From Labrenzia sp. OB1 (lineage in GTDB: Bacteria > Pseudomonadota > Alphaproteobacteria > Rhizobiales > Stappiaceae), in assembly GCF_001624695.1 (NCBI RefSeq), contig NZ_JSEP01000006.1, positions 62,001-126,000 on the forward strand: DNA of 64,000 bases. The letters are read 5' to 3'. The notes beneath the pieces are model-generated. The model searched no databases. It was not told the DNA's origin and saw only the letters and a program-made list of their open reading frames with translations. The position numbers and the translations under genes are program-made. Shown here piece after piece: positions 15,811-32,340 of the stretch. Numbering within the stretch: the stretch's first letter is position 1; each line of letters starts with the position of its first letter.

Positions 15811-16956
15811 TCAGAAAGAGGCTTGCAGCATCCTGAGATAGTCGTCAGCGGTTGCGTCAATGTGGTTGGTCTTGTGGCTGTGGTCGGCCAATGCACCGGA
15901 AATGATGCGGTCGAAGATATTTTCCGAAACACCCAGCTCCGACAGACTGACCGGCAACCCGATGGCCGCCGTCATCTCTTTGATGGCCGCTCCGATATCC
16001 GTTCCGGCAGCCAGACCCATGGCGTCGGCCAGCCGGGCATACTTGTCTTCGCTGACGGACGCCGGAGCCGGCTTGTTGAATTCCAGAACCGCAGGCATGA
16101 ACACCGCGTTCAAGGTGCCGTGGTGCAGTTTCGGATTGAGCCCGCCGAGCGCATGACTGAGGCTGTGTACACAGCCCAGGCCCTTTTGGAAGGCCATCGC
16201 GCCCATGGTTGCGGCAATTGCCATGTTGGCGCGGGCGTCCTTGTCGTCCGGTATTTCCGTAGCCTTGCGGATATTCGCCCAGGCGCGGCGCAGTCCTTCA
16301 AGCGCGATGCCGTCTGCCGGCGGATTAAAGGACGGGGCAAGATACGTCTCGATGCAGTGCGAGATAGCGTCCATTCCGGTGGCTGCAGTCAATACGGGTG
16401 GCAGCGTCATGGTCAATTCCGGATCGACAATGGCAGCTTTCGGGATGAGGAATGGAGACAGCAATCCGACTTTCCGGCCGTCATCCAGTATAACAATCGC
16501 CCCGCGCCCAACTTCGCTACCGGTGCCTGACGTTGTCGGAATAGCGATGGTCGGCCATGTCCTGGCCGTGATTTTTTGCAGGCCGCCCTCGATGACCGCA
16601 TAGGTCTTCAGGGTCCCGCCATGTGCGGCGAGGATGACAACTGCCTTTGCAAGATCGATGGCTGATCCGCCGCCAATGGCGATAACCCCGTCGGCTTCGA
16701 CCTCTTTGAACAAATCCGCCGCGACACGGACGGCCGCCTCGTTCGGGTTGCCGGGGGTCTCGTCGTAAATGCCTGCCGGCGCCTCGCCAAGGACGGCTTC
16801 AATCTTGTCGAGAAACCCGAGATTACGGACGCCCTTGTCTGTCACTACGAGCGGGCGCGAAATTCCGGCGAGCGTCAGTTCTTCCTTCAACGTGACAAGT
16901 TCGCCAAAACCAAACTGAATTCGGGTTACGTAATTGATCAGAGGCATGTCGCTCAC
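15811..16956 (-). CDS. Iron-containing (group III) alcohol dehydrogenase
   Basis: This 381-residue protein has the family layout: a Rossmann-like N-domain with GVIAIGGGSAIDLAKA (NAD binding) and a helical C-domain with the metal ligands. The divalent metal residues are visible as GMDAISHCIE (Asp and His four apart), CVHSLSHALGG (His) and KLHHGTLNAV (His). It would oxidise a primary alcohol to an aldehyde, or the reverse. It stands next to a LysR gene, and an aldehyde dehydrogenase is the first gene on the other side of that regulator. An alcohol-to-aldehyde-to-acid sequence within the same system is therefore likely, but the substrate is unknown. A 9-bp inverted repeat lies directly upstream. 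Confidence 0.9.
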   Translation of the reverse strand: MSDMPLINYVTRIQFGFGELVTLKEELTLAGISRPLVVTDKGVRNLGFLDKIEAVLGEAPAGIYDETPGNPNEAAVRVAADLFKEVEADGVIAIGGGSAIDLAKAVVILAAHGGTLKTYAVIEGGLQKITARTWPTIAIPTTSGTGSEVGRGAIVILDDGRKVGLLSPFLIPKAAIVDPELTMTLPPVLTAATGMDAISHCIETYLAPSFNPPADGIALEGLRRAWANIRKATEIPDDKDARANMAIAATMGAMAFQKGLGCVHSLSHALGGLNPKLHHGTLNAVFMPAVLEFNKPAPASVSEDKYARLADAMGLAAGTDIGAAIKEMTAAIGLPVSLSELGVSENIFDRIISGALADHSHKTNHIDATADDYLRMLQASF

Positions 16957-17191: not shown

Positions 17192-18064
17192 TCAACTATC
17201 GCTAAGCAGCTCCCAGAATGCCTCAACAGCACTGCTTCGGTAATCGTTTTCCTGCCTTATCTTTCTGAGCTCGCGACGACTGATCGGGCGTGATGGAACA
17301 AAGAATTCGACACCGTCGGGTTGGCTTTTCACTGCTTCAAACGGCAGGATGCTGACCCCGAAACCTTGGCGGACGAAAGACAGGATGGCTGTCGTATTGC
17401 GTGCCTCCAGGGTGCTGTTCGCCATTAGTCTGTCGACCAGAGGGTCGTCGATGAGGCGGCACAGCGGGTTGACGATTAGCGGCTCTTGCGTGAGCAAGTC
17501 CCAGCCTGAAGAGCCGCCTGCAGCCAAATGCGCTCTGTGGATCGGCCCACCTTCCGCGCAAACTATACCCAGATCGTCGCACAATATCAGATCCCCCTCC
17601 GACGTTTCGTCAGGACGGGCCGACACGATCCCGATGTCCGCATCATCTCGCTGCACACGCCGGCGCACTGCGGGGGTGTCAACATCGCTGATCTCAATGC
17701 GAACATCAGGATGTGTTTTCCGAAAAATTTCAATCACATCCGGTAGCAAAGACACTGTTGCCGAAGGAACCGCGGCAATGCGCACGATACCTGCCGTCGA
17801 GATGGCATGACGCCGGATAGCCTGAGAGCTCTGGTCGAAGACATCTGTGGCCCGGCGGCTCTCCTCCAGCACCAACTGACCCAGCGGTGTAAGGCGGTTC
17901 TTGCGATCCGTCTGAAAAAGGGGCGCACCGACGTCGTCGACAAGTTGCGCAAGTGTCATGGATATCGCCGAGGGCGTTCGATTCAATTCACGTGCAGCAG
18001 CGGTCAGCGTCCCTGCCTCTGCGACCGTTCGAAAGACACGCAGCATCTCCAGTTTTATCGACAT
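17192..18064 (-). CDS. LysR-family transcriptional regulator of the betaine-like catabolic operon
   Basis: This 290-residue protein has a typical LysR N-terminal winged helix (MLRVFRTVAEAGTLTAAARELNRTPSAISM) and a periplasmic-binding-protein-like effector domain with VRIAAVPSATVSLLPDVI. It is divergent from the aldehyde dehydrogenase operon, with a 90-bp intergenic region holding a 10-bp palindrome, and lies upstream of the iron alcohol dehydrogenase in the same orientation. LysR proteins usually activate a divergent operon when they bind a pathway metabolite, so this is the likely local activator. Confidence 0.88.
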   Translation of the reverse strand: MSIKLEMLRVFRTVAEAGTLTAAARELNRTPSAISMTLAQLVDDVGAPLFQTDRKNRLTPLGQLVLEESRRATDVFDQSSQAIRRHAISTAGIVRIAAVPSATVSLLPDVIEIFRKTHPDVRIEISDVDTPAVRRRVQRDDADIGIVSARPDETSEGDLILCDDLGIVCAEGGPIHRAHLAAGGSSGWDLLTQEPLIVNPLCRLIDDPLVDRLMANSTLEARNTTAILSFVRQGFGVSILPFEAVKSQPDGVEFFVPSRPISRRELRKIRQENDYRSSAVEAFWELLSDS

Positions 18065-18154: not shown

Positions 18155-19606
18155 ATGACCGCGCGCACTCAAATTTATATCGACGGCACCTGGACGGACG
18201 GCGCGTCAATCGTCGAGAACCGCAATCCGTCAGACACGTCTGATCTGATCGGGCTTTTCGCGCAGGCGGATGAATCCCACCTGGACGCAGCCCTTGCGGC
18301 GGCGCGGCGTGCGCAACCGATCTGGTGGGCCACCGGCATTCAAAAGCGCCACGATGTTCTGATGGCCGTCGGCACAGAATTAATGGCTCGCGCTGAAGAA
18401 ATTGGCCGTCTTTTGTCACGCGAAGAAGGCAAGCCGCTTGCCGAGGGCAAGGGCGAAGTTTACCGCGCAGGCCAGTTCTTTACGTATTTCGCGGCCGAGG
18501 TCCTGCGCCAGCACGGTGATCTGGCAGAAAGCGTGCGCCCGGGCATTGAGATCGACGTGCGCCGCGAACCTGTTGGCGTCGTCGCCATCATCAGCCCGTG
18601 GAACTTTCCCGTCGCGACCCCCGCCTGGAAAATCGCGCCCGCGCTGGCCTTTGGCAACTCGGTCGTTTGGAAGCCCGCGAATGTGACACCTGCCAGCGCC
18701 GTGGCGTTGACCGAGATCATCGCCCGTCAGGACATCCCAAAAGGCCTGTTCAATCTGGTGTCCGGTCCGGGCCGAAATGTGGGGCAACGCCTTGTTGAGA
18801 GCAGTCAGGTCGATGCGATCAGTTTCACAGGGTCTGTTCCTGTCGGGCGCGGCATCGCGGCTGCCGCAATCGCGAACATGACCAAAGTTCAAATGGAAAT
18901 GGGATCAAAAAACCCGCTGATCGTGATGGACGATGCGGATCTTGAACTGGCCGTTGTTCATGCCGCCGGGTCGGCTTTTGGCGGAACGGGCCAGAAGTGC
19001 ACCGCTGCCAGCCGCCTGATCGTGCATGCCTCTGTCCATGATGCGTTTGTGGAAAAGTTGGTTGCTGCGGCAAAGGCGCTGAAAGTTGGTCACGCGCTTG
19101 AGGATGGGACCCAGATCGGTCCTGTCGTCAGCGAAAGTCAGTTGACCCAGAATCTCGCGTATGTCGGAACGGGCAAATCCGAGGGCGCAGAGCTGCTCTG
19201 CGGCGGTGAGCGATTGGAACGGGCGACCGACGGCCACTACATGGCCCCCGCCGTTTTTGCGAACACCCGCAACGACATGCAGATCAACCGCGAGGAGATG
19301 TTTGCCCCCATTACCTGTGTGCAAAAAGCAGACAGCTACGCCGAGGCGCTGGCGATTGCCAATGACACGCAATTCGGCCTGACGGCAGGCATCATGACGC
19401 GGTCCCTTTCGCGGGCCATCCACTTTCGCGCGAACATGCGTGCCGGCTGCGTCATGGTGAATCTGCCGACGGCCGGTACGGATTACCATGTGCCTTTCGG
19501 CGGCCGAGGCGCCTCCAGCTACGGTCCCCGCGAACAGGGGTCCTATGCGGCTGAATTCTACACATCCGTCAAAACCGCTTATGTGTCCGCGGGAGAGCCC
19601 GAATGA
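18155..19606 (+). CDS. NAD(P)-dependent aldehyde dehydrogenase (2-ketoglutarate-semialdehyde dehydrogenase-like)
   Basis: This 483-residue protein is a full-length aldehyde dehydrogenase: SPWNFPVATPAWK (cofactor binding), FTGSVPVGRG, the catalytic glutamate in QMEMGSKNP, and the catalytic cysteine in GGTGQKCTAASR. The pattern resembles alpha-ketoglutarate-semialdehyde dehydrogenases, but this class is broad and the true substrate may differ. It is the first gene of a six-gene operon: AGGAGA precedes its ATG and its stop overlaps the next start. It would oxidise the aldehyde released during breakdown of the compound imported by the BCCT transporter. Confidence 0.88.
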   Translation: MTARTQIYIDGTWTDGASIVENRNPSDTSDLIGLFAQADESHLDAALAAARRAQPIWWATGIQKRHDVLMAVGTELMARAEEIGRLLSREEGKPLAEGKGEVYRAGQFFTYFAAEVLRQHGDLAESVRPGIEIDVRREPVGVVAIISPWNFPVATPAWKIAPALAFGNSVVWKPANVTPASAVALTEIIARQDIPKGLFNLVSGPGRNVGQRLVESSQVDAISFTGSVPVGRGIAAAAIANMTKVQMEMGSKNPLIVMDDADLELAVVHAAGSAFGGTGQKCTAASRLIVHASVHDAFVEKLVAAAKALKVGHALEDGTQIGPVVSESQLTQNLAYVGTGKSEGAELLCGGERLERATDGHYMAPAVFANTRNDMQINREEMFAPITCVQKADSYAEALAIANDTQFGLTAGIMTRSLSRAIHFRANMRAGCVMVNLPTAGTDYHVPFGGRGASSYGPREQGSYAAEFYTSVKTAYVSAGEPE

Positions 19607-20616
19607 GCTTTCTGATTGACGGCCTGCAATATGCCAACTGGTCGGAAAAGATCTTCCGCCAAATGCGCGAGGGCGGCGTGGACGCAGTTCACGTGACGAT
19701 CACCTATCATGAGACCTTTCGCGAAACGGTTCTGATCATCGAGCAATGGAACCGCTGGTTTGAAAAGCATCCGGACCTGATCTTTCAGGGCCGCACTGCT
19801 GCTGATGTTCAACTGGCCCGCGACACCGGCCGCACGGCAATTTTCTTCGGCTCGCAAAACCCGTCATGCATCGAGGATGACATCGGCCTGGTCGAGGTCA
19901 TGCACACACTGGGTCTGCGCTTTATGCAACTGACCTACAACAACCAGTCCTTGCTCGCGTCGGGTTGTTACGAGGATGAAGACACAGGCCTGACCCGCAT
20001 GGGCCGCGCTGTGGTCTCGGAGATGAATCGCGTCGGCATGGTGGTCGACATGAGCCATTCCGGAGAACGCTCCACGCTTCAGGCCATCGAACACTCGACA
20101 CGCCCCATTGCTGTCACCCACGCCAACCCGTCCAGCTGGCACATGGCCTTGCGCAACAAATCCGACGATCTGCTGCGAGCGCTCGGGGAATGCGGCGGGT
20201 TTCTGGGGCTATCGACCTATCCACATCACCTTGACGGCGGCAGCGCCTGCACGCTGCAATCCTGGTGCGACATGGCCGCCCTCGCGGTTGATCTGGTAGG
20301 CCCGACGGGCGTCGGGATCGGTACGGACCTTTGCCAGGATCAGCCCGACAGCATTGTTGAATGGATGCGTGTCGGGCGCTGGACCAAGGCAATTGACTAC
20401 GGCGAAGGCAGCGCGGCGAACGCAGGTTTTCCGGCAATGCCCGACTGGTTTCACGACAACCGCGATCTGGCTGGGCTCCGCACGGGTTTGCGCGCCGCCG
20501 GTCTGGACGAGACCACAATAGACGGCGTGATGGGCAACAACTGGCACGCTTTTTTCGAGAGCAGCTTCGGGGCGCAAACCGCACGCCCCGTCACACTAGA
20601 CCGCGCCGCCGAGTAA
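19603..20616 (+). CDS. Membrane-dipeptidase-like (peptidase M19 fold) protein with degenerate metal site
   Basis: This 337-residue protein belongs to the renal-dipeptidase TIM-barrel family and resembles the Pseudomonas protein next to dgcAB (PA5396) in dimethylglycine catabolism, as I recall it. The N-terminal HxD zinc motif of true M19 enzymes is absent: the segment reads IDGLQYANW where the classical form is DGHND. The bridging Glu is replaced in FFGSQNPS. The later histidines are kept (VDMSHSG, AVTHANPS), as are RNKSDD and IGTDL. It is therefore probably not a dipeptidase and may act on a small amine or amide with one metal. Its start overlaps the aldehyde dehydrogenase stop (ATGA). Confidence 0.82.
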   Translation: MSFLIDGLQYANWSEKIFRQMREGGVDAVHVTITYHETFRETVLIIEQWNRWFEKHPDLIFQGRTAADVQLARDTGRTAIFFGSQNPSCIEDDIGLVEVMHTLGLRFMQLTYNNQSLLASGCYEDEDTGLTRMGRAVVSEMNRVGMVVDMSHSGERSTLQAIEHSTRPIAVTHANPSSWHMALRNKSDDLLRALGECGGFLGLSTYPHHLDGGSACTLQSWCDMAALAVDLVGPTGVGIGTDLCQDQPDSIVEWMRVGRWTKAIDYGEGSAANAGFPAMPDWFHDNRDLAGLRTGLRAAGLDETTIDGVMGNNWHAFFESSFGAQTARPVTLDRAAE

Positions 20617-20650: not shown

Positions 20651-22210
20651 GTGACCACGACGACCACACAAACCAAGCCGGGATCTGGCGCGATAGACAA
20701 AGCGCTTTTTGCAGTCACCGGGGGATTTATAGCGCTCTTCTGCGCCTATGCGCTGTTCGATATTGACGGGCTGTCCGCGCTTGTCGATGCCGGTTTTGGT
20801 TTTTCTGCCCGCTATTTCGGGCTGTATTGGCAGCTTCTTCTGCTCGCAACATTCCTGATCGGTCTGCTGCTATGCGTTCTTCCCGGCAGCAGAACCGTGA
20901 TGGGCGGGCTGGATGTGCCGGAATTCAAAATGTTCAGCTGGGGTTCCATGATCATGTGCACCCTGCTTGCCGGAGGGGGCGTGTTTTGGGCAGCAGGTGA
21001 GCCTATCGCGCATTTCCTGTCCACTCCGCCGGTCTTTGGCGATCTGTCGGATGATACGGCTGCGCGCGCGAATGCGGCCCTCGCGCAGAGTTTCCTGCAC
21101 TGGGGCTTTCTGGCCTGGGCAATCCTCGGATCCCTGACAACCGTGATGCTGATGCACTACCACTATGACAAAGGTCTGCCGCTGGCACCGCGCACCTTGC
21201 TGTATCCAGTGTTCGGGGAACGTGCGCTTCATGGTCCGATTGGTCTGATTGCAGATGCGTCCTGCGTGATCGCGGTGGTAGCGGGCACCGTGGGGCCGAT
21301 CGGCTTTCTGGGACTGCAGTTGTCGTACGGGCTGAATGCACTCACAGGCATTCCAGATAACTTTGCAACTCAGGCCGTCGCCATCATGGCGCTTGTCGCG
21401 GTCTATACAATCTCGGCAATCACGGGCTTGGCCAAGGGCATTCAGCTATTGTCACGGATCAACGTGATCCTTGCCATTGCATTGCTGGTGTTCATGCTTG
21501 TCGCAGGCCCCACCACAGAGATTTTCTCGGGTTTCCTTGGTGGTATGCAGATCTATCTGACGCATTTCTTTGATATGACGCTCTACCGCGGAAATGCAGG
21601 CGTGTTCGGCGATCCCGGCTGGTTGGGCTGGTGGACGGTGTTCTTCTGGGGATGGTTCATGGGCTACGGGCCGCTGATGGCGATCTTTATCGCGCGCATC
21701 AGCCGGGGGCGCTCGATCCGTCAGATCATCATCATGTTGTCTATCGCCGCACCGGTGATCACCAACTTCTGGTTCACGATCATCGGCGGCTCCGGCATTT
21801 TCTTCGAGATTGCACAGCCCGGTATCATCTCCGGACCGTTCGAGGGGTTCAACCTGCCCGCCGGCCTGCTGGCGATCACACAGGCGATGCCCATGGGTCT
21901 GATCCTGTCGGTCCTGTTTCTGGCACTGACCATGTGTTTCGTTGCCACCACCAGCGACTCGATGAGCTATGTCATCGCTTCGACAATGTCTGAAGGCGAA
22001 CCTTCGGCAAGCCTGCGCGCCTTCTGGGGTGTTGCAATGGGTGTCATGGCGCTGATCCTGATCTCGACAGGCGCAGGGGGCATAGGCAAATTGCAGAGCT
22101 TTATCGTTGTTACAGCGGTGCCGGTCTCGCTGATCCTGCTGCCTTCGCTTTGGGATGCGCTGCGCATCACTTTGATGCTCGGACGCGAGGCAAAGACAGC
22201 AACGGCCTGA
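20651..22210 (+). CDS. BCCT-family betaine/choline/carnitine-type transporter
   Basis: This 519-residue membrane protein has about 12 hydrophobic segments and BCCT landmarks: PEFKMFSWGSMIMCTLLAGG near TM3, GAGEP-like AAGEPIAHF, and the TM8 signature WWTVFFWGWFMGYGP followed by FIARISRGRS. In BetP-type carriers this signature reads WW..W.P; the changes to F and Y suggest an altered substrate pocket. BCCT carriers import quaternary ammonium or sulphonium compounds with Na+ or H+. The start is GTG, strongly supported by GGGAGG seven bases upstream. Its presence in the operon is the main argument that the substrate is betaine-like. Confidence 0.92.
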   Translation: MTTTTTQTKPGSGAIDKALFAVTGGFIALFCAYALFDIDGLSALVDAGFGFSARYFGLYWQLLLLATFLIGLLLCVLPGSRTVMGGLDVPEFKMFSWGSMIMCTLLAGGGVFWAAGEPIAHFLSTPPVFGDLSDDTAARANAALAQSFLHWGFLAWAILGSLTTVMLMHYHYDKGLPLAPRTLLYPVFGERALHGPIGLIADASCVIAVVAGTVGPIGFLGLQLSYGLNALTGIPDNFATQAVAIMALVAVYTISAITGLAKGIQLLSRINVILAIALLVFMLVAGPTTEIFSGFLGGMQIYLTHFFDMTLYRGNAGVFGDPGWLGWWTVFFWGWFMGYGPLMAIFIARISRGRSIRQIIIMLSIAAPVITNFWFTIIGGSGIFFEIAQPGIISGPFEGFNLPAGLLAITQAMPMGLILSVLFLALTMCFVATTSDSMSYVIASTMSEGEPSASLRAFWGVAMGVMALILISTGAGGIGKLQSFIVVTAVPVSLILLPSLWDALRITLMLGREAKTATA

Positions 22211-22276: not shown

Positions 22277-23953
22277 ATGTTCCAATCTGCTCATAACGCG
22301 ACCTCACCAACAGCGCCGTTCCGCCGCCCCGCGTCCCAGGTCATGCAGCTTGAACGGATGGGATGCAGTCACCCCACCCGCCTGTCTTTCCTGCGCACAA
22401 TGTTGCGCCGGTTGCATCGTGAAAACTGGACAGTGGACCGCCCCGTTTGGGACGTCGATGATACAGGCAGCGGCCATGCCGTTTACCGCACCCGATGCGG
22501 CGGCCGCACATACAGCCTCGTGGCTTTTGCTCATGACCTGCCCGACGACATGCGTTCTGACCGGGTGATTGCCACCGCCTGGGATGCGACCTTTACCCTG
22601 TTTGACGGTGAACCGACACTTGCCGATATCGCCCGCCTGCGCGACAACGTCCCAATTCAAGAAGCTGGCCGGATCAGCACGCGTGAACTGACGCTGGCAC
22701 GCGCCAACCGGTCCGTTCGCCTGTTTCACCATGTGGTTGACGCTCTGTCCCAAGGCCGTCAGCCTGACCCAGCCGAAATCGCGGACATCGGATATCTGAT
22801 GCGCACGACCGCCGTTTACGGTTCAGGGAAATTCGGGGCTGCGGACCGCTCTGACATTGCTGACCGCCCTGAATTGGCGGCCCCTTTTCAGGTCGAAATG
22901 CTGACTGTCTGGCTGATACGTGCCTTTACCGTCGATATTGCGGAACACATGGCGATGGTCAAAGGAGGCAATCGCGCCATTAGCCTTGATCGCAACCTGC
23001 GCCGCACCCTTGGTGTCGGCAATTCGACAGGCCTGGGAATGGCACCTTTTATTGTGCGCCATCCCGTTTTGCTGAACAATTGGATGATGGCCCGTGAGGA
23101 AGCTTTGGCACGCGTGCGTGCACAGGCAGGAGCGACACAATCAACCATCGCCGGACTGCGAGTGGCCCTTGATACCACCATCCAAAACGCCGCCTGCTGG
23201 ACATCCAGACATCCCGTGCAAGTGCCAAAACTCGCAGACCTGCGCACTGATGTGCGCCTGTTGTCCGATACGGTCAAGGCTTGGGATTTCGATCAACCGC
23301 ACCCATGGGATGCGCTCTGGCGCTGGGGGCAAGATGCCTTGTCATGCGAGGGACAGGAAGCGCTTCTGTCGGTGATGCTGGAACCCCACGGCGATCTGGT
23401 GGACGACCTCGCCGACTGCATGGGTGCGGATGAGGCACCATCTTTTTGCATCAATGGCGCGATGCGCGTGAGTGAGTTGCGCGCGATCCTGGAACAACAC
23501 TACGGGTGGGCGCTTTCGATCGACTTTACGACACCCGAAAATATTGCGCGCTTCTGGTACGTATCAGAAGAAAAGCTTGAGCCGCGGCTGGGCGAAAGAG
23601 CAACCGAAGACGGGGCGACACTGGAACAGCCATTGTGCATCGCCCGCCTCGCCGCCGAGTTGGACGACACCTTGCGGGACCGTGACGGCGACGAAGCTGT
23701 CGCCGCTATCCTGCTTGCTCACCCCGAACATCGCTATGTGATAAGGCGGGTTCAAATCGCGCAGAACCATCCCTATGCGGAAGTTCAGGACAACCTGATT
23801 GCCGCAGCGATGTTGCCCATCGATCTGCTGCGCTGCAAGTTGTCATTCTTCGGTGCGACACGGTTTGATCCGAGATCAGACCGCTGGGTCCGCATCAATT
23901 TGTTCCAAGGCACACCGTTCCCTGATGAAATCGGTCTGGAAGGTATGCAATGA
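22277..23953 (+). CDS. Protein of unknown function, 558 residues
   Basis: I do not recognise the family. The product is soluble (no signal peptide or membrane segment), acidic, and rich in Arg, Asp and Trp. It begins with a variable 30 residues, then HPTRLSFLRTMLRRLHRENW. Notable segments are FGAADRSD, VKGGNRAISLDRNLRRTLGVGNSTGLGM, where the Gly/Asn-rich part looks like a ligand or nucleotide loop, and a C-terminal IRRVQIAQNHPYAEVQDN. GGAG sits eight bases before the ATG. The stop overlaps the DUF3726-type gene by four bases, so the two are translationally coupled and probably act together. It is almost certainly a real gene, given its length, coding character and coupling. Confidence 0.8.
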   Translation: MFQSAHNATSPTAPFRRPASQVMQLERMGCSHPTRLSFLRTMLRRLHRENWTVDRPVWDVDDTGSGHAVYRTRCGGRTYSLVAFAHDLPDDMRSDRVIATAWDATFTLFDGEPTLADIARLRDNVPIQEAGRISTRELTLARANRSVRLFHHVVDALSQGRQPDPAEIADIGYLMRTTAVYGSGKFGAADRSDIADRPELAAPFQVEMLTVWLIRAFTVDIAEHMAMVKGGNRAISLDRNLRRTLGVGNSTGLGMAPFIVRHPVLLNNWMMAREEALARVRAQAGATQSTIAGLRVALDTTIQNAACWTSRHPVQVPKLADLRTDVRLLSDTVKAWDFDQPHPWDALWRWGQDALSCEGQEALLSVMLEPHGDLVDDLADCMGADEAPSFCINGAMRVSELRAILEQHYGWALSIDFTTPENIARFWYVSEEKLEPRLGERATEDGATLEQPLCIARLAAELDDTLRDRDGDEAVAAILLAHPEHRYVIRRVQIAQNHPYAEVQDNLIAAAMLPIDLLRCKLSFFGATRFDPRSDRWVRINLFQGTPFPDEIGLEGMQ

Positions 23954-24669
23954 CGATCGCACCACACGATCAAACGCGCGGGGATTCCGCGCAGTTCATT
24001 GAATTCGGTCAGTCGGCGTCCCTTTCGCGCAACGAAGTCGCATCCCTTTGCATGAAGGCCGCGCGCGGCGCCGGACTGAGTTGGGGACTGGCCGAAGAGG
24101 CTGGCTTCGCTGCGGAATGGCTGGTTCACCATGGCATCGACGGGCCCAGTCATCTCTATGCCCATCTCGACCAGGCGCAGGGCCGTGCATGGTGCGATCT
24201 GTGCCCGACGGTGACACCGGGAGAGTGGCGGGCACCGGCGGGCTACGCACTTTGTCCAATCGCTCTTGGGGCGACGCTTTGCGACTACGCAGGACTGCCC
24301 GAAGGGATCAAGGTCGGATCATCGCTGAAGATCGGCACGGTGGATCACCCCGTTCTCCTGATCCCGTTTCTCGCAGGAATTGCCGTATCAAACGATATCC
24401 TGTTTGACATCGAGTGGGCAGGTGGAACGGCAAGTCTTGAAGGTGGACACGAGGCACTCATGCAAGCCGTATCCGTGCTTGGCGGACAGCGGGTGCCCAT
24501 CAAGCTGACCGCACGGTTCGGCAAACCACAGGCCGCGAAAGGCGGCAAGGCTCTCAGCATCTCGGCGGAGACCATCGCAGCGCTCAATTCTCTGGCGATG
24601 CGCACAACAGTTCCCTCATCCGAAAGCTCCCGTGCGGGAGCTGGATCAACAACAACCGACAACGATTGA
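23950..24669 (+). CDS. DUF3726-type protein of unknown function
   Basis: The protein is 239 residues. The segment SLSRNEVASLCMKAARGAGLSWGLAEEAGFAAEWL matches the pattern I associate with DUF3726, though this is from memory. No signal peptide or membrane span is seen; the C-terminal 25 residues are Ser/Thr-rich and probably disordered. Motifs otherwise unknown to me include CDLCPT and GTASLEGGHEALMQ. It is coupled to the preceding 558-residue protein by ATGA, with GGAAGG just upstream. The WGLAEEAG segment suggests a conserved helical surface. Its role must lie in the breakdown of the compound handled by this operon. Confidence 0.72.
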   Translation: MTIAPHDQTRGDSAQFIEFGQSASLSRNEVASLCMKAARGAGLSWGLAEEAGFAAEWLVHHGIDGPSHLYAHLDQAQGRAWCDLCPTVTPGEWRAPAGYALCPIALGATLCDYAGLPEGIKVGSSLKIGTVDHPVLLIPFLAGIAVSNDILFDIEWAGGTASLEGGHEALMQAVSVLGGQRVPIKLTARFGKPQAAKGGKALSISAETIAALNSLAMRTTVPSSESSRAGAGSTTTDND

Positions 24670-24683
24670 AAAAGGACGCAATG

Positions 24684-25043
24684 ATGCCCTTGAAGCGCCT
24701 GAACCCCGGCCCCCGCATGAGCCAAGCTGTTTGCATTGGTGACATCGCTTTTCTTGCAGGACAGGTCCCTGATGATCTCGGAGCTGACATTACAGAGCAA
24801 ACCGAGCAGGTTCTGACCAAAATGGACGCTGTCATCAAAGAGTTGGGTGCCGACAAGGCTGACATTGCGTCTGTTCAAGTCTGGCTTGCCGACATGGCGG
24901 ACTTCCAGGGCATGAACGACGTCTGGGACAAGTGGGTCGACCGTCATGCCCCACCCGCCCGCGCAACCGGCGGCGTCGCCTTGGCCCGGCCGGGAATGCG
25001 GGTAGAAATGATTGCGGTCGTCGCGATGCCAAAATCCGTCTGA
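24684..25043 (+). CDS. RidA-family enamine/imine deaminase
   Basis: The protein is 119 residues from the second of two adjacent ATGs (24681, 24684), chosen because AAGGAC is better spaced to it. It has the RidA fold: NPGPRMSQAVCIGDIAFLAGQVPDD, a central VQVWLADMADFQGMNDVWDKWV, and the C-terminal ATGGVALARPGMRVEMIAVVAM. The conserved arginine of canonical RidA, which sits in a short C-terminal R(S/A)xxxVxxLP-like segment, is not clearly present, so this may be one of the Rid1-7 subfamilies. RidA proteins hydrolyse reactive enamines and imines, which supports an imine-forming amine catabolic step in this operon. Confidence 0.85.
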   Translation: MPLKRLNPGPRMSQAVCIGDIAFLAGQVPDDLGADITEQTEQVLTKMDAVIKELGADKADIASVQVWLADMADFQGMNDVWDKWVDRHAPPARATGGVALARPGMRVEMIAVVAMPKSV

Positions 25044-26074: not shown

Positions 26075-26944
26075 ATGCCAATAACCGACGACATGATCAT
26101 CGAAGCTACCGGGGAACTTTATTCCCGGTCGCTCAGAAAAGTTCCCGAAGATGCGAAGGCAGCCCTGGCCGCCGCCATGGAGACGGAATCGAACGAAACC
26201 GCGCGGCAGACCCTCAAGCTTCAGCTCAAAAGCGCCGAAATGTCCGAAAACAAGGATACATTCGTGTGCTCAGACAGCGGCGTGCCGGTCTATTTCGTCA
26301 AGGTGGGCAGCAAGGCGGAGCTTGCATGCGACTTCAAGGCCTCGATCCGGAAGGGCTATGAAGTCCTCGTGGAGACCATCGAGCCGCCTCTGCTGAAACA
26401 TGTCACCAACCCGATTACCCTGGAACGCGGGTATCACGGCAAGGACATGCCGATCGTTTCCTATGATTTCGAGAGCGGCGCCGATTATGTCGAGATGGTG
26501 TGCTCACCCAAGGCGCTCGGGTCTGGCCGCTGGGCGGCATTGGAACTCTTCACCTTTCCCACTCTCGAACAGATCGAGACCTACATCCTGGATGTCGCGA
26601 TCAAGGCCGGGGCTCAGCATTGCCCGCCTGTCCTCATGGGCGTCGGCATCGGCGGAACCTTCGACCATTGCGCGGGCCTTGCCAAGAAACAGACCCTGCG
26701 GCCAATCGGCGAGAAGAACCCGGACCCGGTGCTGGCGGAGATGGAGGCCAGGCTGACGAAGGCGATCAACGGGCTTGGCTTCGGGCCGATGGGCACTGGC
26801 GGCGACACAACAGTCCTGGGCGTGCATGTGGATTTTTCGAGCGGACACGGTTTTACCCCCGTCGCCGTGTGCTTCAACTGCTGGATCAACCGCCGCGCCC
26901 GCGTGCGGATCTGGGGAGACGGACGCATGGAGTGGTCGGAATGA
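26075..26944 (+). CDS. Class I fumarase/L-tartrate-dehydratase-type hydro-lyase, alpha subunit
   Basis: This 289-residue protein is the N-terminal catalytic domain of the [4Fe-4S] fumarate hydratase class I family as a separate subunit, as in TtdA. The three cluster cysteines are visible in FVCSDSGVP, VCSPKALG and DHCAGLAKK. PMGTGGDTTVLGVHVD near the C-terminus is a conserved active-site segment. The enzyme would interconvert a 2-hydroxydicarboxylate and its unsaturated acid (malate/fumarate, tartrate, or methylated analogues such as mesaconate/citramalate). The context of CoA-transferases and TctC-type uptake favours a pathway-specific substrate over the TCA cycle. Its stop overlaps the beta-subunit start (ATGA). 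Confidence 0.88.
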   Translation: MPITDDMIIEATGELYSRSLRKVPEDAKAALAAAMETESNETARQTLKLQLKSAEMSENKDTFVCSDSGVPVYFVKVGSKAELACDFKASIRKGYEVLVETIEPPLLKHVTNPITLERGYHGKDMPIVSYDFESGADYVEMVCSPKALGSGRWAALELFTFPTLEQIETYILDVAIKAGAQHCPPVLMGVGIGGTFDHCAGLAKKQTLRPIGEKNPDPVLAEMEARLTKAINGLGFGPMGTGGDTTVLGVHVDFSSGHGFTPVAVCFNCWINRRARVRIWGDGRMEWSE

Positions 26945-27573
26945 GCGTGACGGAGCATGACCTGACCCTGCCCCTCAGCCAGGAGGCGGCGCAAAAGCTG
27001 AAGCTGGGCGACTTCGTCTATCTGACGGGGGAAATCTTCGCCACCGCGGGCCTTCCGACCCATGACCGGCTGCTGAAGTGCCTGGAGGGCGCCGAACCCT
27101 TGCCGTTCGACATGAGCGGGAGCGCGCTCTTTCATCTTGGCAGCCTGAATGAGGAAGCCGAGGACGGCACGCTCAGCATTGTCTACATGAACCCGACGAC
27201 GAGCACCCGCTTCAACGCACATATGCCCCGCCTCATCCCAGGGCTTGGCCTGCGCGCAACCGGCGGCAAGGGCGGGCTGGACGCAACATGCGCGCGCGCC
27301 ATGGCTGAGAGCGGCTGCGTCTATCTGTCATTCCTCGGCGGCGGCGCACCGATCATCACGGCGGGGATCCGCAAGGTCACCGGGATCGGCTGGCCGGAAA
27401 TGATTTCGCATTACCGGATCGCCCGGATCGAGGTCGAACGCCTCGGCCCCCTGACCGTCGGGATCGATGCACGAGGCAACAGCATTTACGACCGGACTTC
27501 AAAAGCATCGCTCGAAAAGCGGGCGGCGATACTGGAGGGGATGCGCGCCGAGCGCGACAGCTTCGAGGCCTGA
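26941..27573 (+). CDS. Class I fumarase/L-tartrate-dehydratase-type hydro-lyase, beta subunit
   Basis: The start is the ATG at 26941, which overlaps the alpha-subunit stop; the frame is open further upstream but only as a shadow of alpha. The 210-residue product is the C-terminal domain of class I fumarases, with GDFVYLTGEIFATAGLPTHDR, MNPTTSTRFN, and ATGGKGGLD, which carry substrate-carboxylate contacts. Alpha and beta together form the working enzyme. The order matches ttdA-ttdB. The substrate is undetermined. Confidence 0.88.
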   Translation: MSVTEHDLTLPLSQEAAQKLKLGDFVYLTGEIFATAGLPTHDRLLKCLEGAEPLPFDMSGSALFHLGSLNEEAEDGTLSIVYMNPTTSTRFNAHMPRLIPGLGLRATGGKGGLDATCARAMAESGCVYLSFLGGGAPIITAGIRKVTGIGWPEMISHYRIARIEVERLGPLTVGIDARGNSIYDRTSKASLEKRAAILEGMRAERDSFEA

Positions 27574-27719
27574 AGGGGCTGCCATGCAGTACCTGCCGCT
27601 GGGAAGCCCGTGCAAAACGTGACGAAAGGTGCGTTCAGTGCTCGCGCCCTGGAGATCGCCGCCGCCCCACACATGAGCTCCGGGTAAGAAAAAACTTGCG
27701 CCGCCCCTGAAAAGAGTTA

Positions 27720-27741
27720 AAAACTATATTACTAGCTTTAT
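27720..27741. promoter_or_regulatory. Island operator candidate C (upstream of the first tctC)
   Basis: AAAACTA (27720-27726), a 6-bp spacer TATTAC and TAGCTTTAT (27733-27741) form an imperfect dyad of the same layout as site A. It lies 57 bp upstream of the tctC-like start, in a 224-bp gap after the fumarase-like genes. Confidence 0.45.
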
Positions 27742-27797
27742 GAAGTCGCTCTGGAATTGAGAGGCTATTATCGGGCTTGAACTGGGAGGTTTACCAT

Positions 27798-28793
27798 ATG
27801 CCGAGATTTCACTGGAACAACATCCGCCGCTCGCTTGCCGCGAGTGTCATCGGGGGGCTTGCGGTCGTTTCCGCAGGGACCGCCATCGCCGAGGATTACC
27901 CGACCCAGCCGATCACGCTGGTTGTCGGCTTCCCACCGGGGGGATCGACCGACGTTGTCGCGCGTATCCTTGCCGGGCACATGTCCACGAGCCTGGGACA
28001 GCCTGTTCTGGTCGAAAACCGGCCGGGCGCGGGTGGAACAGTCGGCATTTCGCACGTCGCCAATTCTGATCCCGATGGCTATACGCTGGGTGTCAGCGGC
28101 GTCGGCGCATCGATCCTGATCGATGCCCTGGGCCGCGATTCTGGCTATGACATCGACAACGACCTTGACGTGATCGGCGTCATGGGGACCCTCGGCCTCG
28201 TTATCGCGGGCCGCAACGGACTTGAGGCGCAAACGCTGCCGGAACTGATGGAATTCGCCAAGGCAAATCCGGAAGACCTGACCTATGGCAGTTCCGGAGT
28301 TGGAACACCGGGTCATCTGGCGATGGAATATCTGAAGAGCCTCGCCGGCGTGGAGATGCTGCACATTCCCTACAAGGGTAACACGCCGCTGTTGAATGAC
28401 GTCGTGGGCGGCCATGTCGATATCGCCATGCTGACGACGCCAGGAGCGGCCGAGCACGTTCGCGCCGAAAACATTCAGCCCTTCGCCGTCTCCTCGCCCG
28501 AGCGGTCTTCTCTCATGCCCGATGTGCCGACGGTGATCGAAGGCGGCTTCGAAGGCTACACCGCGACGCTCTGGAACCTGCTGGTCGCGCCGAAAGGCAC
28601 ACCTGCCGATGTTCAGGCGAAACTGTCGGATGCGCTGAATGGTGCAATGAAGGATGTCCGCGTTGTCGGTGAATTCGCCACGAAAGGCCTGGCACCGACG
28701 ATCACCACCCCGGAAGAGGCAACTCAGTTCCTCGTCGATGAACGAGCGAAATGGAAAGGTGTGATCGAAACTGCGGGTGTTCCGAAAAAATAG
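27798..28793 (+). CDS. Tripartite tricarboxylate transporter substrate-binding protein (TctC/Bug type), copy 1
   Basis: The start ATG at 27798 has GGGAGGT seven bases upstream; an in-frame Met at 27777 lacks one. The 331-residue protein has a Sec signal peptide (basic PRFHWNNIRR, then a hydrophobic stretch ending TAIAEDYP). The mature part is a Bug-type periplasmic receptor: GFPPGGSTDVVARIL near the N-terminus and ENRPGAGGTVG. Bug proteins bind di/tricarboxylates or aromatic acids. It precedes tctB and tctA in the order C-B-A. A GC-rich stem-loop directly downstream probably raises receptor mRNA relative to the membrane genes. Confidence 0.92.
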   Translation: MPRFHWNNIRRSLAASVIGGLAVVSAGTAIAEDYPTQPITLVVGFPPGGSTDVVARILAGHMSTSLGQPVLVENRPGAGGTVGISHVANSDPDGYTLGVSGVGASILIDALGRDSGYDIDNDLDVIGVMGTLGLVIAGRNGLEAQTLPELMEFAKANPEDLTYGSSGVGTPGHLAMEYLKSLAGVEMLHIPYKGNTPLLNDVVGGHVDIAMLTTPGAAEHVRAENIQPFAVSSPERSSLMPDVPTVIEGGFEGYTATLWNLLVAPKGTPADVQAKLSDALNGAMKDVRVVGEFATKGLAPTITTPEEATQFLVDERAKWKGVIETAGVPKK

Positions 28794-28802
28794 GAATAAA
28801 GT

Positions 28803-28832
28803 GGAGCGCGGCGGCCTTTTCCACCGCGCTCC
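28803..28832 (+). terminator. Stem-loop between tctC and tctB (copy 1)
   Basis: GGAGCGCGG (28803-28811) and CCGCGCTCC (28824-28832) pair perfectly around a 12-base loop. No T tract follows, so it is more likely an mRNA-stabilising or attenuating element at the end of the receptor gene than a full terminator. The second tctC gene in the window also has a hairpin just downstream. Confidence 0.6.
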
Positions 28833-28856
28833 GCACACCTGAATTCAGAGATCGCC

Positions 28857-29309
28857 ATGAAAACCATTTCGCTTCGGCTCATCGTTGCCGTACTTCTGGC
28901 CGGAATCGGCCTGACTGCCCTCGTCATCGCATCGACCTATGACATCGGCTCGGCCCGCAGAATGGGTCCCGGTTACTTTCCAGTCGTTTTGTCCGCCGTC
29001 CTTGTTCTGCTTGCCGTGGCAGAAGGGGTGACCGCTTTCATGAAGCGTGCCCCCGAAAGCTCTTCTTCCAAAATCGATTGGCGGCCGTTGCTGGCCATCC
29101 TGGGTGCGGTCGCGGGATTTGCGGTCACAATCGCGCTGTTCGGCCTGATCCCGGCATTCTTCGTGGTCATCGGTCTCGCGACCCTTTCGGAGCCCCGTTA
29201 TGGCTGGAAACCGGCTGCGATCCTCGCGATCATCACCTGTATCGGGGCCTGGTTGCTGTTCTCGCAGCTTCTGGGAATGACCCTGCCGCTCTTTCGCCTG
29301 GGATTTTAG
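28857..29309 (+). CDS. TctB-family small membrane subunit, copy 1
   Basis: This 150-residue protein has four hydrophobic segments (about 7-25, 36-56, 75-95 and 113-140), the topology of TctB. A SARRMGPGYFPVVLS segment after the first helix is typical of the family. It forms the small integral-membrane part of the tripartite carrier with TctA. It sits between the receptor and tctA, with a 5-bp gap to tctA. Confidence 0.88.
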   Translation: MKTISLRLIVAVLLAGIGLTALVIASTYDIGSARRMGPGYFPVVLSAVLVLLAVAEGVTAFMKRAPESSSSKIDWRPLLAILGAVAGFAVTIALFGLIPAFFVVIGLATLSEPRYGWKPAAILAIITCIGAWLLFSQLLGMTLPLFRLGF

Positions 29310-29314
29310 CCGAT

Positions 29315-30862
29315 ATGATTGAGAACATTCTCCTGGGTTTCGCCACCGCGTTCACGCCTGAAAATCTGGCCTACTGCTTTCTCGGTGTCTTTCTCGGCAC
29401 CTTCATCGGCGTCCTGCCCGGACTGGGCTCTCTCGCCGCGATCTCGATGCTGCTGCCGTTGACGTTCTATCTGGAGCCGACAACAGCCCTGATCATGCTG
29501 GGCGGGATCTATTACGGCGGCGAGTATGGCGGCTCCATCGCCTCGATCCTCCTGAACCTGCCGGGCACCCCGTCGGCCGCGGTGACCTGTCTCGACGGCA
29601 ATCCGATGGCCAAGCAGGGCCGTGCCGGGGTCGCGCTGTTCATCACTGCGATCGCATCCTTCGTCGGCGGCTCTGTCGGCATCGTGGCGCTCATGGGATT
29701 TGGTCCGTCCATCGCCAGGCTGGGCCTTGGCTTCAGCCCAGCCGATTATTTCGCGCTCATGCTGCTGGGGCTCGTGGCCGCCGTGACAGTCGGCGGCGGT
29801 TCCGTGATCAAGGGCCTCATCATGGTTGTGCTGGGCCTGCTGCTCGGCACGGTCGGCACCGACGTTACAACCGGCGATTTCCGCTACACATTCGACTTTC
29901 TGGAGCTGCGCGACGGGGTCAGCCTGGTCGCCATGGCGATGGGTGTCTTCGGTGTCTCGGAAGTCATCAGCTCGATCACAGGCTCGAAAACCCGGAAGAT
30001 CTCGGAAAAGGTCACCGCGCGCAGCATGATGCCGACCCGCCAGGACCTCCGTAAAATCTTCGGACCGATGGCCCGCGGCAGTACCATCGGCGGGTTCCTG
30101 GGCGCGCTTCCGGGAGCGGGAACGGTAATCGCGGCATTCATGGCCTATGCGACGGAAATCCGTCTCGCAAAAGACAAGACGCGTTTCGGCAAAGGCGCCA
30201 TCGAAGGCATCGCCGCCCCTGAATCCGCCAACAACGCCGCCGCCCAGACTGCCTTCATCCCTACGCTGACAATCGGCATTCCAGGCAGCGCCACCATGTC
30301 GATCATGCTGGGTGCGCTGATGATCCACGGCATCTCGCCCGGCCCGCTGCTGATTTCCGATCATCCGACCGTGTTCTGGGGTTTGATTGCCAGTTTCTGG
30401 ATCGGCAACCTGTTTCTGCTGGTCCTCAATATTCCGCTGATCGGCCTTTGGGTACGCGTTCTGCAGTTCCCCTACAAATACATTTACCCGGTGGTTATCG
30501 CGCTGATATGCATCGGCGTCTTTTCGATGCGCACCAGCGTTTTCGATGTCAGTCTGGTGGTGATTTTCGGCGCTCTGGGCTACCTGTTTCAGAGAACGGG
30601 CTATTCTCCGGCACCGCTCATTCTCGGCTTCGTCCTTGGCCCGATGCTGGAGGAAAACCTGCGCCGTGCGATGCTCATGGCGCGAGGGGATCCGATGCGG
30701 CTGATCTCCGATCCGCTGACCGGATCTCTACTGGCCATTTCAGCACTGATGCTGGTCTGGGCCGTGTTTGGCGGGATCAGAAGTCTGATCGCGGCGCGCC
30801 GGAAGGGCCGGGTGTTCCGCCATAGGCGAGGGCTAAGGTGCTGGCCCCTTCCGCCGGGTTGA
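29315..30862 (+). CDS. TctA-family large membrane subunit, copy 1
   Basis: The real start is ATG 29315 (MIENILLGFATAF); the open frame extends upstream over tctB. The 515-residue protein has about 12 membrane segments and the TctA landmarks FIGVLPGLGSLAA, YYGGEYGGS, NLPGTPSAAVTCLDG and ALPGAGTVIAAFMAYATE. It is the solute-translocating subunit, driven by H+ or Na+. Copy 2 at 46.6 kb has the same length and aligned motifs, so the two carriers are paralogues and may serve related substrates. Confidence 0.92.
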   Translation: MIENILLGFATAFTPENLAYCFLGVFLGTFIGVLPGLGSLAAISMLLPLTFYLEPTTALIMLGGIYYGGEYGGSIASILLNLPGTPSAAVTCLDGNPMAKQGRAGVALFITAIASFVGGSVGIVALMGFGPSIARLGLGFSPADYFALMLLGLVAAVTVGGGSVIKGLIMVVLGLLLGTVGTDVTTGDFRYTFDFLELRDGVSLVAMAMGVFGVSEVISSITGSKTRKISEKVTARSMMPTRQDLRKIFGPMARGSTIGGFLGALPGAGTVIAAFMAYATEIRLAKDKTRFGKGAIEGIAAPESANNAAAQTAFIPTLTIGIPGSATMSIMLGALMIHGISPGPLLISDHPTVFWGLIASFWIGNLFLLVLNIPLIGLWVRVLQFPYKYIYPVVIALICIGVFSMRTSVFDVSLVVIFGALGYLFQRTGYSPAPLILGFVLGPMLEENLRRAMLMARGDPMRLISDPLTGSLLAISALMLVWAVFGGIRSLIAARRKGRVFRHRRGLRCWPLPPG

Positions 30863-31024
30863 CGGGCTGACGGGCTGCACCAAACAGCATGGCGCTTCCT
30901 GCAGAAGGCCGGCCAGTCCGGGCAACGCACCCCTCCCCGGCCCGAGGAGCCAAATCCAGCGGGCCCATCTCATAAGGCTTAGAGCACTCTTCATCTACAT
31001 ATCGGACAACTAAAAATAAAATTG

Positions 31025-31048
31025 ATAAGTTATAATTATGATTTTTAT
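31025..31048. promoter_or_regulatory. Island operator candidate D (upstream of the first CoA-transferase)
   Basis: ATAAGTTA (31025-31032), spacer TAATTA and TGATTTTTAT (31039-31048) have the layout of site A. It shares ATAAGTTATAA with site E and TATAATTATGATT with site B. It ends 60 bp upstream of the CoA-transferase start. Confidence 0.5.
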
Positions 31049-31108
31049 CTTGAGCAAGCCGCCCTGCGGCAGCTACCCTGAAGACAGCGATCGGCGAGGA
31101 GGAACGTG

Positions 31109-32332
31109 ATGGCCGGAACACTCAGTCATATCCGGGTTCTGGATTTGAGCCGTGTTTTCGCCGGCCCGTGGGCGGCCCAGATGCTGGCGGACTTCGGGGC
31201 CGATGTCGTCAAGGTGGAGCATGTGAAGGGCGGAGACGACGTGCGCCGCATGGGTGTGCCGCATCTTGGCGCCGACGGTGAACCCACGGGTGAAACGTCT
31301 TCCTTCCTGGCCATGAACCGGGGCAAGCGGTCCCTCGCTCTGGATCTTTCCAAGCCCGAAGGCCAGGAGATCGCCCGCCGGCTGATCGCCGATGCGGATG
31401 TTCTGATCGAAAACTTCAAGACCGGCACGCTTGCGCGTTTCGGACTGGATTTCGAAACCGTCGCCAAGCTCAATCCGAAGCTGGTCTATTGCTCGATCAC
31501 GGGGTTCGGACAGACTGGACCGATGAAACACTTGCCGGGCTACGATCCGATATTCCAGGCGATGAGCGGATTGCTCAGCATGACCGGCGCGGGCGACGGT
31601 GAGCCCGGCGCGGGCCCTGCCCTTGTCGGCTATTCGATCTCCGACATCACCGCCGGGCAATACGCGGTCTCGGCCATACTCGCGGCATTGACCCACCGCG
31701 ACGCGGTGTCCGGTGAAGGGCAGTTCATCGACATCGCCCTTCTGGATACGCAGATCCACGCCGCATCGCACATGGCGATGAACTACCTGTCCTCGGGCAC
31801 GCTGCCGCGCCGCAACGGCACCGCCTCGCAGATCACCTGCCCCTGGCAGGTTTTCGACTGCGCTGATCGTCCGATCATGATCGCCATCGGAAACGACCCG
31901 CAATTCGCCCGTTTCGCGGCTTATCTGGGCCTTGAAGGCATTGCCGGGGACACGCGGTTTTCCACCAATCTCGCCCGCGTCCAGAATGCCGATATCCTGG
32001 TGCCGATGATCGCCGAAAAGCTCTCAGGGAAGCAGGCGGACACCTGTTATGCGGAGCTGGAAGCCATCGGCATTCCCGCCGGCCCACTCAACACCTTCGA
32101 CGACGTCTTCCGGATGGAGCAGGTCGAGGCACGCGGCCTGTTGCAGGAAATGCAGCATGAAGCGGCCGGGCGTGTGCGCTACGTCGCCAACCCGGTCAGG
32201 TTTTCCGGGTCGAATGCCGCCAATGCGGTGCCCCCTCCCCGCTTCGCCGAACATACAGACGAAATCCTGGCCGGGCTCGGCTTCGACGCCTTGCGGATCG
32301 CAGCTCTGCGCGACGCCGGCATCGTGAAATAG
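31109..32332 (+). CDS. Class III (family III) CoA-transferase, copy 1
   Basis: I choose the ATG at 31109 over a GTG three bases upstream because AGGAGG is six bases before the ATG. The 407-residue protein opens with the family motif RVLDLSRVFAGPWAAQMLADFGADVVKVE and continues with LIENFKTGTLARFGLD and CSITGFGQTGP. The catalytic aspartate is the Asp of IALLDTQIHA. It would move CoA from a donor such as succinyl-CoA to a carboxylic acid, activating the imported substrate without ATP. A paralogue lies 3 kb downstream, so the pathway may contain two different acids that need activation. It leads a unit with two acyl-CoA dehydrogenases. Confidence 0.9.
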   Translation: MAGTLSHIRVLDLSRVFAGPWAAQMLADFGADVVKVEHVKGGDDVRRMGVPHLGADGEPTGETSSFLAMNRGKRSLALDLSKPEGQEIARRLIADADVLIENFKTGTLARFGLDFETVAKLNPKLVYCSITGFGQTGPMKHLPGYDPIFQAMSGLLSMTGAGDGEPGAGPALVGYSISDITAGQYAVSAILAALTHRDAVSGEGQFIDIALLDTQIHAASHMAMNYLSSGTLPRRNGTASQITCPWQVFDCADRPIMIAIGNDPQFARFAAYLGLEGIAGDTRFSTNLARVQNADILVPMIAEKLSGKQADTCYAELEAIGIPAGPLNTFDDVFRMEQVEARGLLQEMQHEAAGRVRYVANPVRFSGSNAANAVPPPRFAEHTDEILAGLGFDALRIAALRDAGIVK

Positions 32333-32340
32333 AGGCATTC

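Follow-up and report, generated by a model that had tools for sequence, protein, structure and literature searches.

What does ORF558, a 558-residue protein encoded in a catabolic operon of Labrenzia sp. OB1, do, and does it act together with the DUF3726 protein encoded next to it? The gene lies in a window of 64,000 nucleotides (the whole stretch of DNA that was analysed), where the gene order is LysR (divergent), aldehyde dehydrogenase (ALDH), M19, BCCT, ORF558, DUF3726 and RidA. An earlier note on this DNA had proposed that ORF558 and DUF3726 are two subunits of one enzyme, and that neither could be placed in a known enzyme family. Our analysis indicates that the pair probably helps mostly marine bacteria to use a cyclic, betaine-like compound, for example homarine, as a nutrient.

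The ORF558 gene, its relatives and its predicted structure

ORF558 (22277..23953, + strand) starts with ATG and is preceded by a ribosome-binding GGAG about 8 nt upstream. Its GC content by codon position (0.66/0.47/0.64) is like that of the neighbouring genes, and an open frame of 558 codons would arise by chance at this base composition with a probability of ~9e-9. These results confirm each of the gene features that had been read from the sequence earlier, i.e. a long frame, a good ribosome-binding site, coding like the neighbours and an ATGA junction with the next gene. ORF558 is a real gene, with relatives in 19 of the 87 investigated genomes of the family and in 53 of 385 that were sampled from the class.

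Scanning species genomes yielded 558 confirmed ORF558 candidates. The 80 that were kept came mostly from Rhodobacteraceae, with some from gamma- and deltaproteobacterial bins. Another 168 records came from plasmids, among them those of Phaeobacter, Ruegeria TM1040, rhizobia, Variovorax and the haloarchaeon Natrinema. The pair is retained in genomes of only 1.2-1.4 Mb. Two of these (L136, L144) carry, in one stretch, Ldh_2, a three-gene betaine ABC importer, ALDH, M19, ORF558 and DUF3726, and another (L135) carries M19, ORF558 and DUF3726. A decayed relative with many stop codons was seen in a genome of 1.8 Mb (G163:C43:756-2305). In hundreds of relatives, including those of reduced genomes and of a haloarchaeal plasmid, neither protein has an annotated function.

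Sequence searches did not assign ORF558 to a family. Comparison with Pfam and NCBIfam at E-values up to 1 gave no match, and neither did comparison with the Ldh_2 family give a confident one. Searches of the PDB sequences with phmmer and with a 68-row profile gave chance-level matches only, in the latter case noise on helical proteins. When 68 relatives were compared with Pfam, only seven scattered matches appeared (best E 0.025). The earlier statement that neither protein could be placed thus holds for ORF558, which has no match in Pfam, NCBIfam or the PDB sequences, but not for DUF3726, which has a truncated Ldh_2-type fold (see below).

The AF2 model of ORF558, the proposed large subunit, has a pLDDT of 89.9 and a pTM of 0.91. 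Foldseek returned 85 PDB matches at E-values up to 10, the best at 0.3 and none at or below 0.001, with probabilities of at most 0.10 among the matches listed. Hence, the structural comparison of the predicted monomer that had been suggested earlier gave no confident match to any known fold. Similarly, the best VIA-align match had a Z-score of 4.8 over 88 residues, followed by one of 4.7 (JetABC), and a search of BFVD gave no match at E ≤0.001. Further VIA-align matches were phage Mu Mom (Z 4.5, 144 residues, rmsd 4.8) and several NAT10 or NAT10-homologue entries (Z 2.4-3.7). A GNAT-like core, at which the Mom and NAT10 matches hint, is a weak lead that we do not claim. A haem dioxygenase (TDO/IDO-like), considered because of the conserved residue H262 and formamide logic, was absent from both fold-search lists, and this idea was dropped. 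The long chain was modelled whole, and absent matches in the PDB and BFVD do not prove that ORF558 has a new fold.

Two loops, GGNRAISLD and GVGNSTGLGM, had been proposed as a ligand site. The second (residues 246-255; codons at 23012..23041, + strand) is at the 98th conservation percentile and forms a Gly-rich loop that links a strand and a helix in the model, whereas the first is only at the 30th percentile and is not conserved. The top-ranked window of 11 residues is GNSTGLGMAPF, followed by GYLMRTTAVYG and then WYVSEEKLEPR. In total, 39 positions, many of them charged, have a weighted conservation of at least 0.97. Across the alignment no Cys is conserved, and H262 is the only His with strong conservation.

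Pairing of ORF558 with a truncated dehydrogenase-like protein

The DUF3726 gene (23950..24669, + strand) encodes 239 amino acids, the proposed small subunit, and overlaps the ORF558 gene by the 4 nt of an ATGA stop/start junction (23950..23953, + strand; ...GCAATGACG). The protein belongs to PF12525 (E 5.7e-23), which it matched with 81 bits against a gathering cut-off of 22.1. The Pfam entry gives no function and its model spans 73 positions only; a text search of the literature for DUF3726 found nothing.

PF12525 occurred in 43 genomes of the class sample, all among the 53 with an ORF558 relative, and in 18 genomes of the family, all among the 19 with an ORF558 relative. Fisher tests gave p-values of 9e-48 and 1e-17, respectively, which are only indicative since the genomes are related. 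These genome searches with PF12525 are independent of our locus-built profiles. The exclusive tie of DUF3726 to ORF558 within the sampled genomes is new here. In all 80 loci the DUF3726 gene lay directly 3' of ORF558 on the same strand, and it was found within 8 kb in 104 of 106 loci. These counts of adjacency are not wholly independent evidence, since some of the loci also went into building the profiles of ORF558 and DUF3726. The junction was a 4-nt overlap in 60 of the 80 loci, a fusion in three (L039, L047, L060) and of another kind in 17 (one at -1 and 16 within 60 nt). On a finished Mesorhizobium plasmid the pair is annotated as a single CDS (RefSeq WP_199201047.1). In Phaeobacter inhibens DSM 17395 the pair has the accessions WP_014881811.1/WP_014881812.1. 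One further locus that reads as one chain (L011) was not counted, because its junction resembles a frameshift relative to L006.

The genomes with ORF558 and without PF12525 (10 in the class, one in the family) partly represent distant or fragmentary matches. In three of them (G344, G459 and G071; loci L140, L134 and L130) the gene immediately after ORF558 encodes a protein that resembles the partner and has a related tail. Among relatives at about 30% identity, in S. meliloti, Bosea and Variovorax, an IclR regulator gene is followed by ORF558, an overlapping gene for a hypothetical protein and a dipeptidase gene. The hypothetical proteins carry an equivalent tail at their ends, P-D-S..SRR-AG. 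The distant pair on S. meliloti pSymB (L148, 8220-19626) is surrounded by genes for an IclR regulator, dipeptidase, ABC transporter, aminotransferase, semialdehyde dehydrogenase and RidA, a gene set that suggests a related but different substrate. A partner was looked for and not found next to the relatives in L150 (Vibrio) and L131. Taken together, the genomic data strongly back the proposal that the two coupled genes encode parts of one functional unit. We conclude that ORF558 and DUF3726 very probably form an obligate pair.

The fold of DUF3726 was deduced from a natural fusion. The model of L060 has a pLDDT of 85.8 and a pTM of 0.72, as compared with a pTM of 0.91 for ORF558 alone. Its DUF3726 part, which stands in for the window protein, aligned with 15 entries of the Ldh_2 family at Z-scores of 10.9-13.9 over 168-198 residues (rmsd 3.3-4.1 A), while the next unrelated entry reached 4.7. 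In Foldseek the best Ldh_2 matches had a probability of ~1, but E-values of only 0.025 or higher. A local profile comparison of DUF3726 with Ldh_2 gave an E-value of 1.7e-4, and PF02615 matched the divergent partners of Variovorax (E 0.0054) and Natrinema (E 4.8e-9). In contrast, the DUF3726 profile found nothing of note among the PDB sequences (best E 0.073), and therefore the Ldh_2 link rests on the fold, the local profile comparison and the divergent partners. The window protein itself matched PF12525 only in Pfam at E-values up to 1 and did not reach the PF02615 cut-off.

Ldh_2 (PF02615) comprises malate/lactate type-2, ureidoglycolate and sulfolactate dehydrogenases and DpkA. DUF3726 shares the fold of this family, but is about 100 residues shorter, carries an extra C-terminal tail and has an obligate partner. 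The solved members are mostly 332-361 residues long (313 in 4h8a_B) as opposed to 239 in DUF3726, which is therefore truncated and falls short of a full-length member. The models and profiles identify DUF3726 as a truncated fold of the type-2 malate/lactate/Δ1-piperideine-2-carboxylate dehydrogenases, and this identity is new here. The N-terminal active-site motif of Ldh_2 enzymes is Ser-His(-Gly). In the profile alignment DUF3726 has a gap at this position, and the string SHG occurs in four of 60 DUF3726 proteins, which is a weak test since even the Ldh_2 proteins of the operons have it in just 17 of 28 cases. According to the earlier note, a confident match to a well-known fold of unrelated role would speak against the pair. 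A well-known fold was indeed found for DUF3726, but its role is not unrelated, given that many of these operons also encode a full-length Ldh_2/DpkA-like enzyme.

The haloarchaeal pair on the Natrinema versiforme plasmid pNVE500 (L149, 9088-11618) includes a partner of 317 residues that scored 36.2 bits against PF02615 (cut-off 38.8), and by its sequence appears to be intermediate between full Ldh_2 proteins and DUF3726.

The C-terminal tail of DUF3726 (TTVPSSESSRAGAGSTTTDND; codons at 24604..24666, + strand) stands out in the alignment of relatives. Its motif (P-x-[S/T]..SR..AG...DND) was found in 75 of the 80 loci, with the DND end in 54. In the L060 fusion model the last residues, which form this tail, have a pLDDT below 50. 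A tail that is conserved yet disordered alone is what would be expected if it folds into a partner. Three relatives in deltaproteobacterial bins (L049, L058, L062) lack the DND end (..DDPTS / ..DNPTS); in these loci a gene that by eye looks pentapeptide-repeat-like lies nearby on the opposite strand.

Gene content of the operon

To count neighbouring genes, we used loci with at least 4 kb of flanking sequence on both sides and considered genes within 8 kb of ORF558. Of 139 loci, 26 with short flanks were omitted and seven distant relatives were tabulated apart, leaving 106 loci (101, 94 and 82 after dereplication at 97, 85 and 75% identity). M19 was present in 99 of these loci, ALDH in 76, LysR in 67, BCCT in 47, Ldh_2 in 38, RidA in 35, an ABC ATPase in 21 and SoxA-like genes in 9.

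In the window, a LysR-type regulator (17192..18064, - strand) is divergent from the operon; next to it lies an iron-containing alcohol dehydrogenase gene (15811-16956, - strand), whose product scored 597.9 bits against the NCBIfam model of 4-hydroxybutyrate dehydrogenase (cut-off 500). The aldehyde dehydrogenase (18155..19606, + strand) was below the cut-off of every NCBIfam equivalog among the matches listed, the best of which was of the alpha-ketoglutaric semialdehyde dehydrogenase type. It is followed by the Peptidase_M19 gene ('membrane dipeptidase'; 19603..20616, + strand) and by a transporter of the BCCT family (betaine/carnitine/choline type by Pfam and NCBIfam; 20651..22210, + strand). 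Downstream of the pair lies RidA, of the imine/enamine deaminase family (24666..25043, + strand), which starts at TTG 24666 or at the in-frame ATG 24681. Farther downstream (26075-33405, + strand), translations read by eye suggest another catabolic block, with two fumarase-like subunits, TctC/TctA-like tricarboxylate transport, a CoA-transferase and an acyl-CoA dehydrogenase.

The M19 protein of the window clearly belongs to its family (229.6 bits, cut-off 26), and among solved structures it is closest to the amidohydrolase 2i5g (3.2e-57). In renal dipeptidase the binuclear metal centre of M19 is bound by an N-terminal HxD and by the Glu of a GxEGG motif. The Glu of this motif in 3id7 aligns with a Gln in the window protein; of the 67 cluster members, 65 share this substitution and the other two have a gap or X. 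In place of the N-terminal HxD they have D-x-L-Q-Y-x-N-W without any His (D-Q-Y-W in 64 of 67), whereas the later metal ligands H152, H173 and D242 are retained in all 67. Judged from these substitutions, the operon M19 is a reprogrammed subfamily and not an ordinary dipeptidase.

Transporters and imine-processing enzymes both alternate among loci. BCCT and the ABC ATPase occurred together in three of the 106 loci, and an ABC importer of the glycine-betaine type replaces BCCT elsewhere. RidA and Ldh_2 likewise occurred together in three loci, with neither in 36. After dereplication at 97, 85 and 75% identity, this mutual exclusion had p-values of 2.9e-5, 1.1e-4 and 0.003, although shared ancestry inflates such tests. 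The alternation of RidA and Ldh_2 in ORF558 operons is new here. The closest PDB relative of the operon Ldh_2 is delta1-piperideine-2-carboxylate reductase (1wtj, 1e-60; next 2.5e-39), which acts on cyclic imines that bear a 2-carboxylate. The source genome has RidA in its cluster, and the Ldh_2 matches in this genome all lie away from the operon, at 33-39% identity.

A possible role in the use of cyclic betaines

Homarine is betaine-like, being N-methylpyridinium-2-carboxylate (N-methylpicolinate), and therefore the importer, the reductase and an N-methyl oxidase would all fit this compound. RidA and Ldh_2/DpkA enzymes both act on C=N compounds, by hydrolysis and reduction, respectively; we therefore read them as alternative treatments of the same imine or enamine. 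A SoxB/SoxA/SoxG-like operon adjoins the cluster in L097 and in Ruegeria TM1040, and would encode a sarcosine oxidase or N-methylglutamate dehydrogenase (SoxBDAG / MgdABCD; the two are not distinguished in these loci). Such an enzyme fits an N-methyl amino acid intermediate; it would act downstream and is no relative of ORF558. One of the 9 loci with nearby SoxA-like genes also has RidA. The linked SoxA type, defined at an identity of at least 61% among the matches listed (a cut-off chosen in this analysis), was present in six of the 19 family genomes with ORF558 as compared with three of the 68 without it. It occurred in none of the 10 ORF558 genomes that have RidA in the cluster, but in six of the eight others that are close relatives (the distant G071 excluded). 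The source genome lacks this type (best match 46%).

Ferrer-Gonzalez et al. 2026 reportedly described a homarine operon, homABCDER, with five genes and a regulator, in alpha- and gammaproteobacteria. The cluster investigated here (ALDH, M19, ORF558, DUF3726 and Ldh_2 plus LysR) agrees with it in gene number, a likeness in number and not in compared gene identities; the window cluster differs from this version by having RidA in place of Ldh_2. A literature search on the gene names of the operon found nothing relevant. In PMC13390433, N-methylglutamate dehydrogenase (Mgd) is described as participating in homarine catabolism.

We lean towards an operon that serves the degradation of an N-methyl cyclic betaine. 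As a concrete pathway, which is new here, a BCCT or ProVWX-like transporter would import a betaine-type compound for use in the cytoplasm, with homarine or a similar N-methylated cyclic 2-carboxylate as the likeliest substrate. ORF558 would be the large and DUF3726 the small subunit of a single enzyme that attacks or opens the N-heterocycle. The small subunit may descend from an Ldh_2-type dehydrogenase that was pared down by about 100 residues and gained the C-terminal tail, which might insert into ORF558 near GVGNSTGLGM to form a physical complex. The minimal cluster of the streamlined genomes contains no recognised oxygenase or ring-opening enzyme, and hence the ring-attacking step is assigned to the pair by elimination; that the pair performs it is an assignment that may fail about as readily as hold. 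Its product would then be handled by the reprogrammed M19 hydrolase and by the aldehyde dehydrogenase. In the RidA variant, as in the window, the imine or enamine would be hydrolysed, which should set methylamine free, while in the Ldh_2 variant a DpkA-like enzyme would reduce it to an N-methyl amino acid for oxidation by an N-methyl-amino-acid dehydrogenase of the sarcosine oxidase/Mgd type. The scheme is not uniform, as ALDH lies nearby in just 76 of the 106 loci and the 36 loci mentioned above have neither RidA nor Ldh_2 nearby. The low number of loci with SoxA/Mgd-like genes, the missing SoxA type in the source genome, the lower pTM of the fusion model and the two relatives next to which no partner was found also speak against the explanation, and the link to homarine is drawn from gene content and from the statement in PMC13390433.

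Two chemical routes can be envisaged. The reduced N-methyl ring might be converted into N-formyl-N-methylglutamate semialdehyde, followed by oxidation by ALDH and deformylation by M19. Alternatively, hydrolytic opening might give a methylamino-muconate semialdehyde, on which ALDH and then RidA would act. The hydrolytic opening may fit the RidA variant better than the N-formyl route, and we make no choice between them. The complete explanation, a two-subunit enzyme attacking the N-heterocycle ring of an N-methylated cyclic betaine, probably homarine, is put forward tentatively, at slightly less than an even chance; a homarine-type substrate together with a ring-attacking step is, as a joint claim, somewhat more doubtful still.

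The same obligate pair might instead act on another substrate, such as proline betaine/stachydrine, N-methylproline, hydroxyproline betaine or trigonelline, with the DpkA-like enzyme then working on pyrroline-2-carboxylate. This seems rather unlikely, although the betaine type of the importers agrees with it, and the closest solved relative of the Ldh_2 neighbour acts on piperideine-2-carboxylate, in a reductase family that also takes pyrroline-2-carboxylate. A Pro_racemase gene lies downstream in L091, yet in this one locus only among the neighbours scanned; genes for an MttB-like methyltransferase and an FAD oxidoreductase adjoin the Mesorhizobium fusion. The tie of Mgd to homarine in PMC13390433 argues for homarine.

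Other explanations concern the role of the proteins themselves. DUF3726 could be an accessory chaperone or a cofactor-loading or regulatory protein for ORF558, and no subunit of the catalytic site. It is much shorter than Ldh_2 proteins and may not bind a nucleotide, and adjacency and co-occurrence would suit a dedicated helper just as well; the one-chain fusions (three of 80 loci plus the RefSeq record), however, suggest a stable 1:1 unit and the strongly conserved tail suggests a functional contact, and we regard a helper role as rather unlikely, to about the same degree as another substrate. Far less probable is that the pair has no enzymatic activity and serves to bind or sense the imported compound. 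The lack of a recognised catalytic motif and of a conserved Cys, with H262 as the single strongly conserved His, would agree with such a role. But the many charged residues among the 39 most conserved positions of ORF558 and the retention of the pair in streamlined genomes, where its neighbours from the set are all genes for transporters and enzymes, argue against it, and an ordinary LysR regulator is often present.

Our preferred reading thus remains that of a two-subunit, ring-attacking enzyme. In its boldest form, which we consider improbable but worth stating, the pair would be a new class of heteromeric enzyme, with an unseen fold in ORF558 and a dehydrogenase-derived scaffold as small subunit. 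It would open the N-methylpyridinium ring without a classical oxygenase, flavin or metal centre, and would be a main entry of homarine-type carbon and nitrogen in marine alphaproteobacteria. No such centre is proposed because ORF558 has no conserved Cys and one strongly conserved His, and no oxygenase was recognised in the minimal cluster.

The co-occurrence of the two proteins, the nature of one as a degenerate dehydrogenase and their place in a betaine operon make a single testable enzyme out of what were two 'hypothetical' annotations. If the operon is the published homarine operon, its role is known at the level of the pathway, while the enzyme and its fold remain open. If the pair does open the ring of homarine, this would explain how widespread bacteria start to use this compound, and would add an unfamiliar way to cleave an aromatic N-heterocycle.
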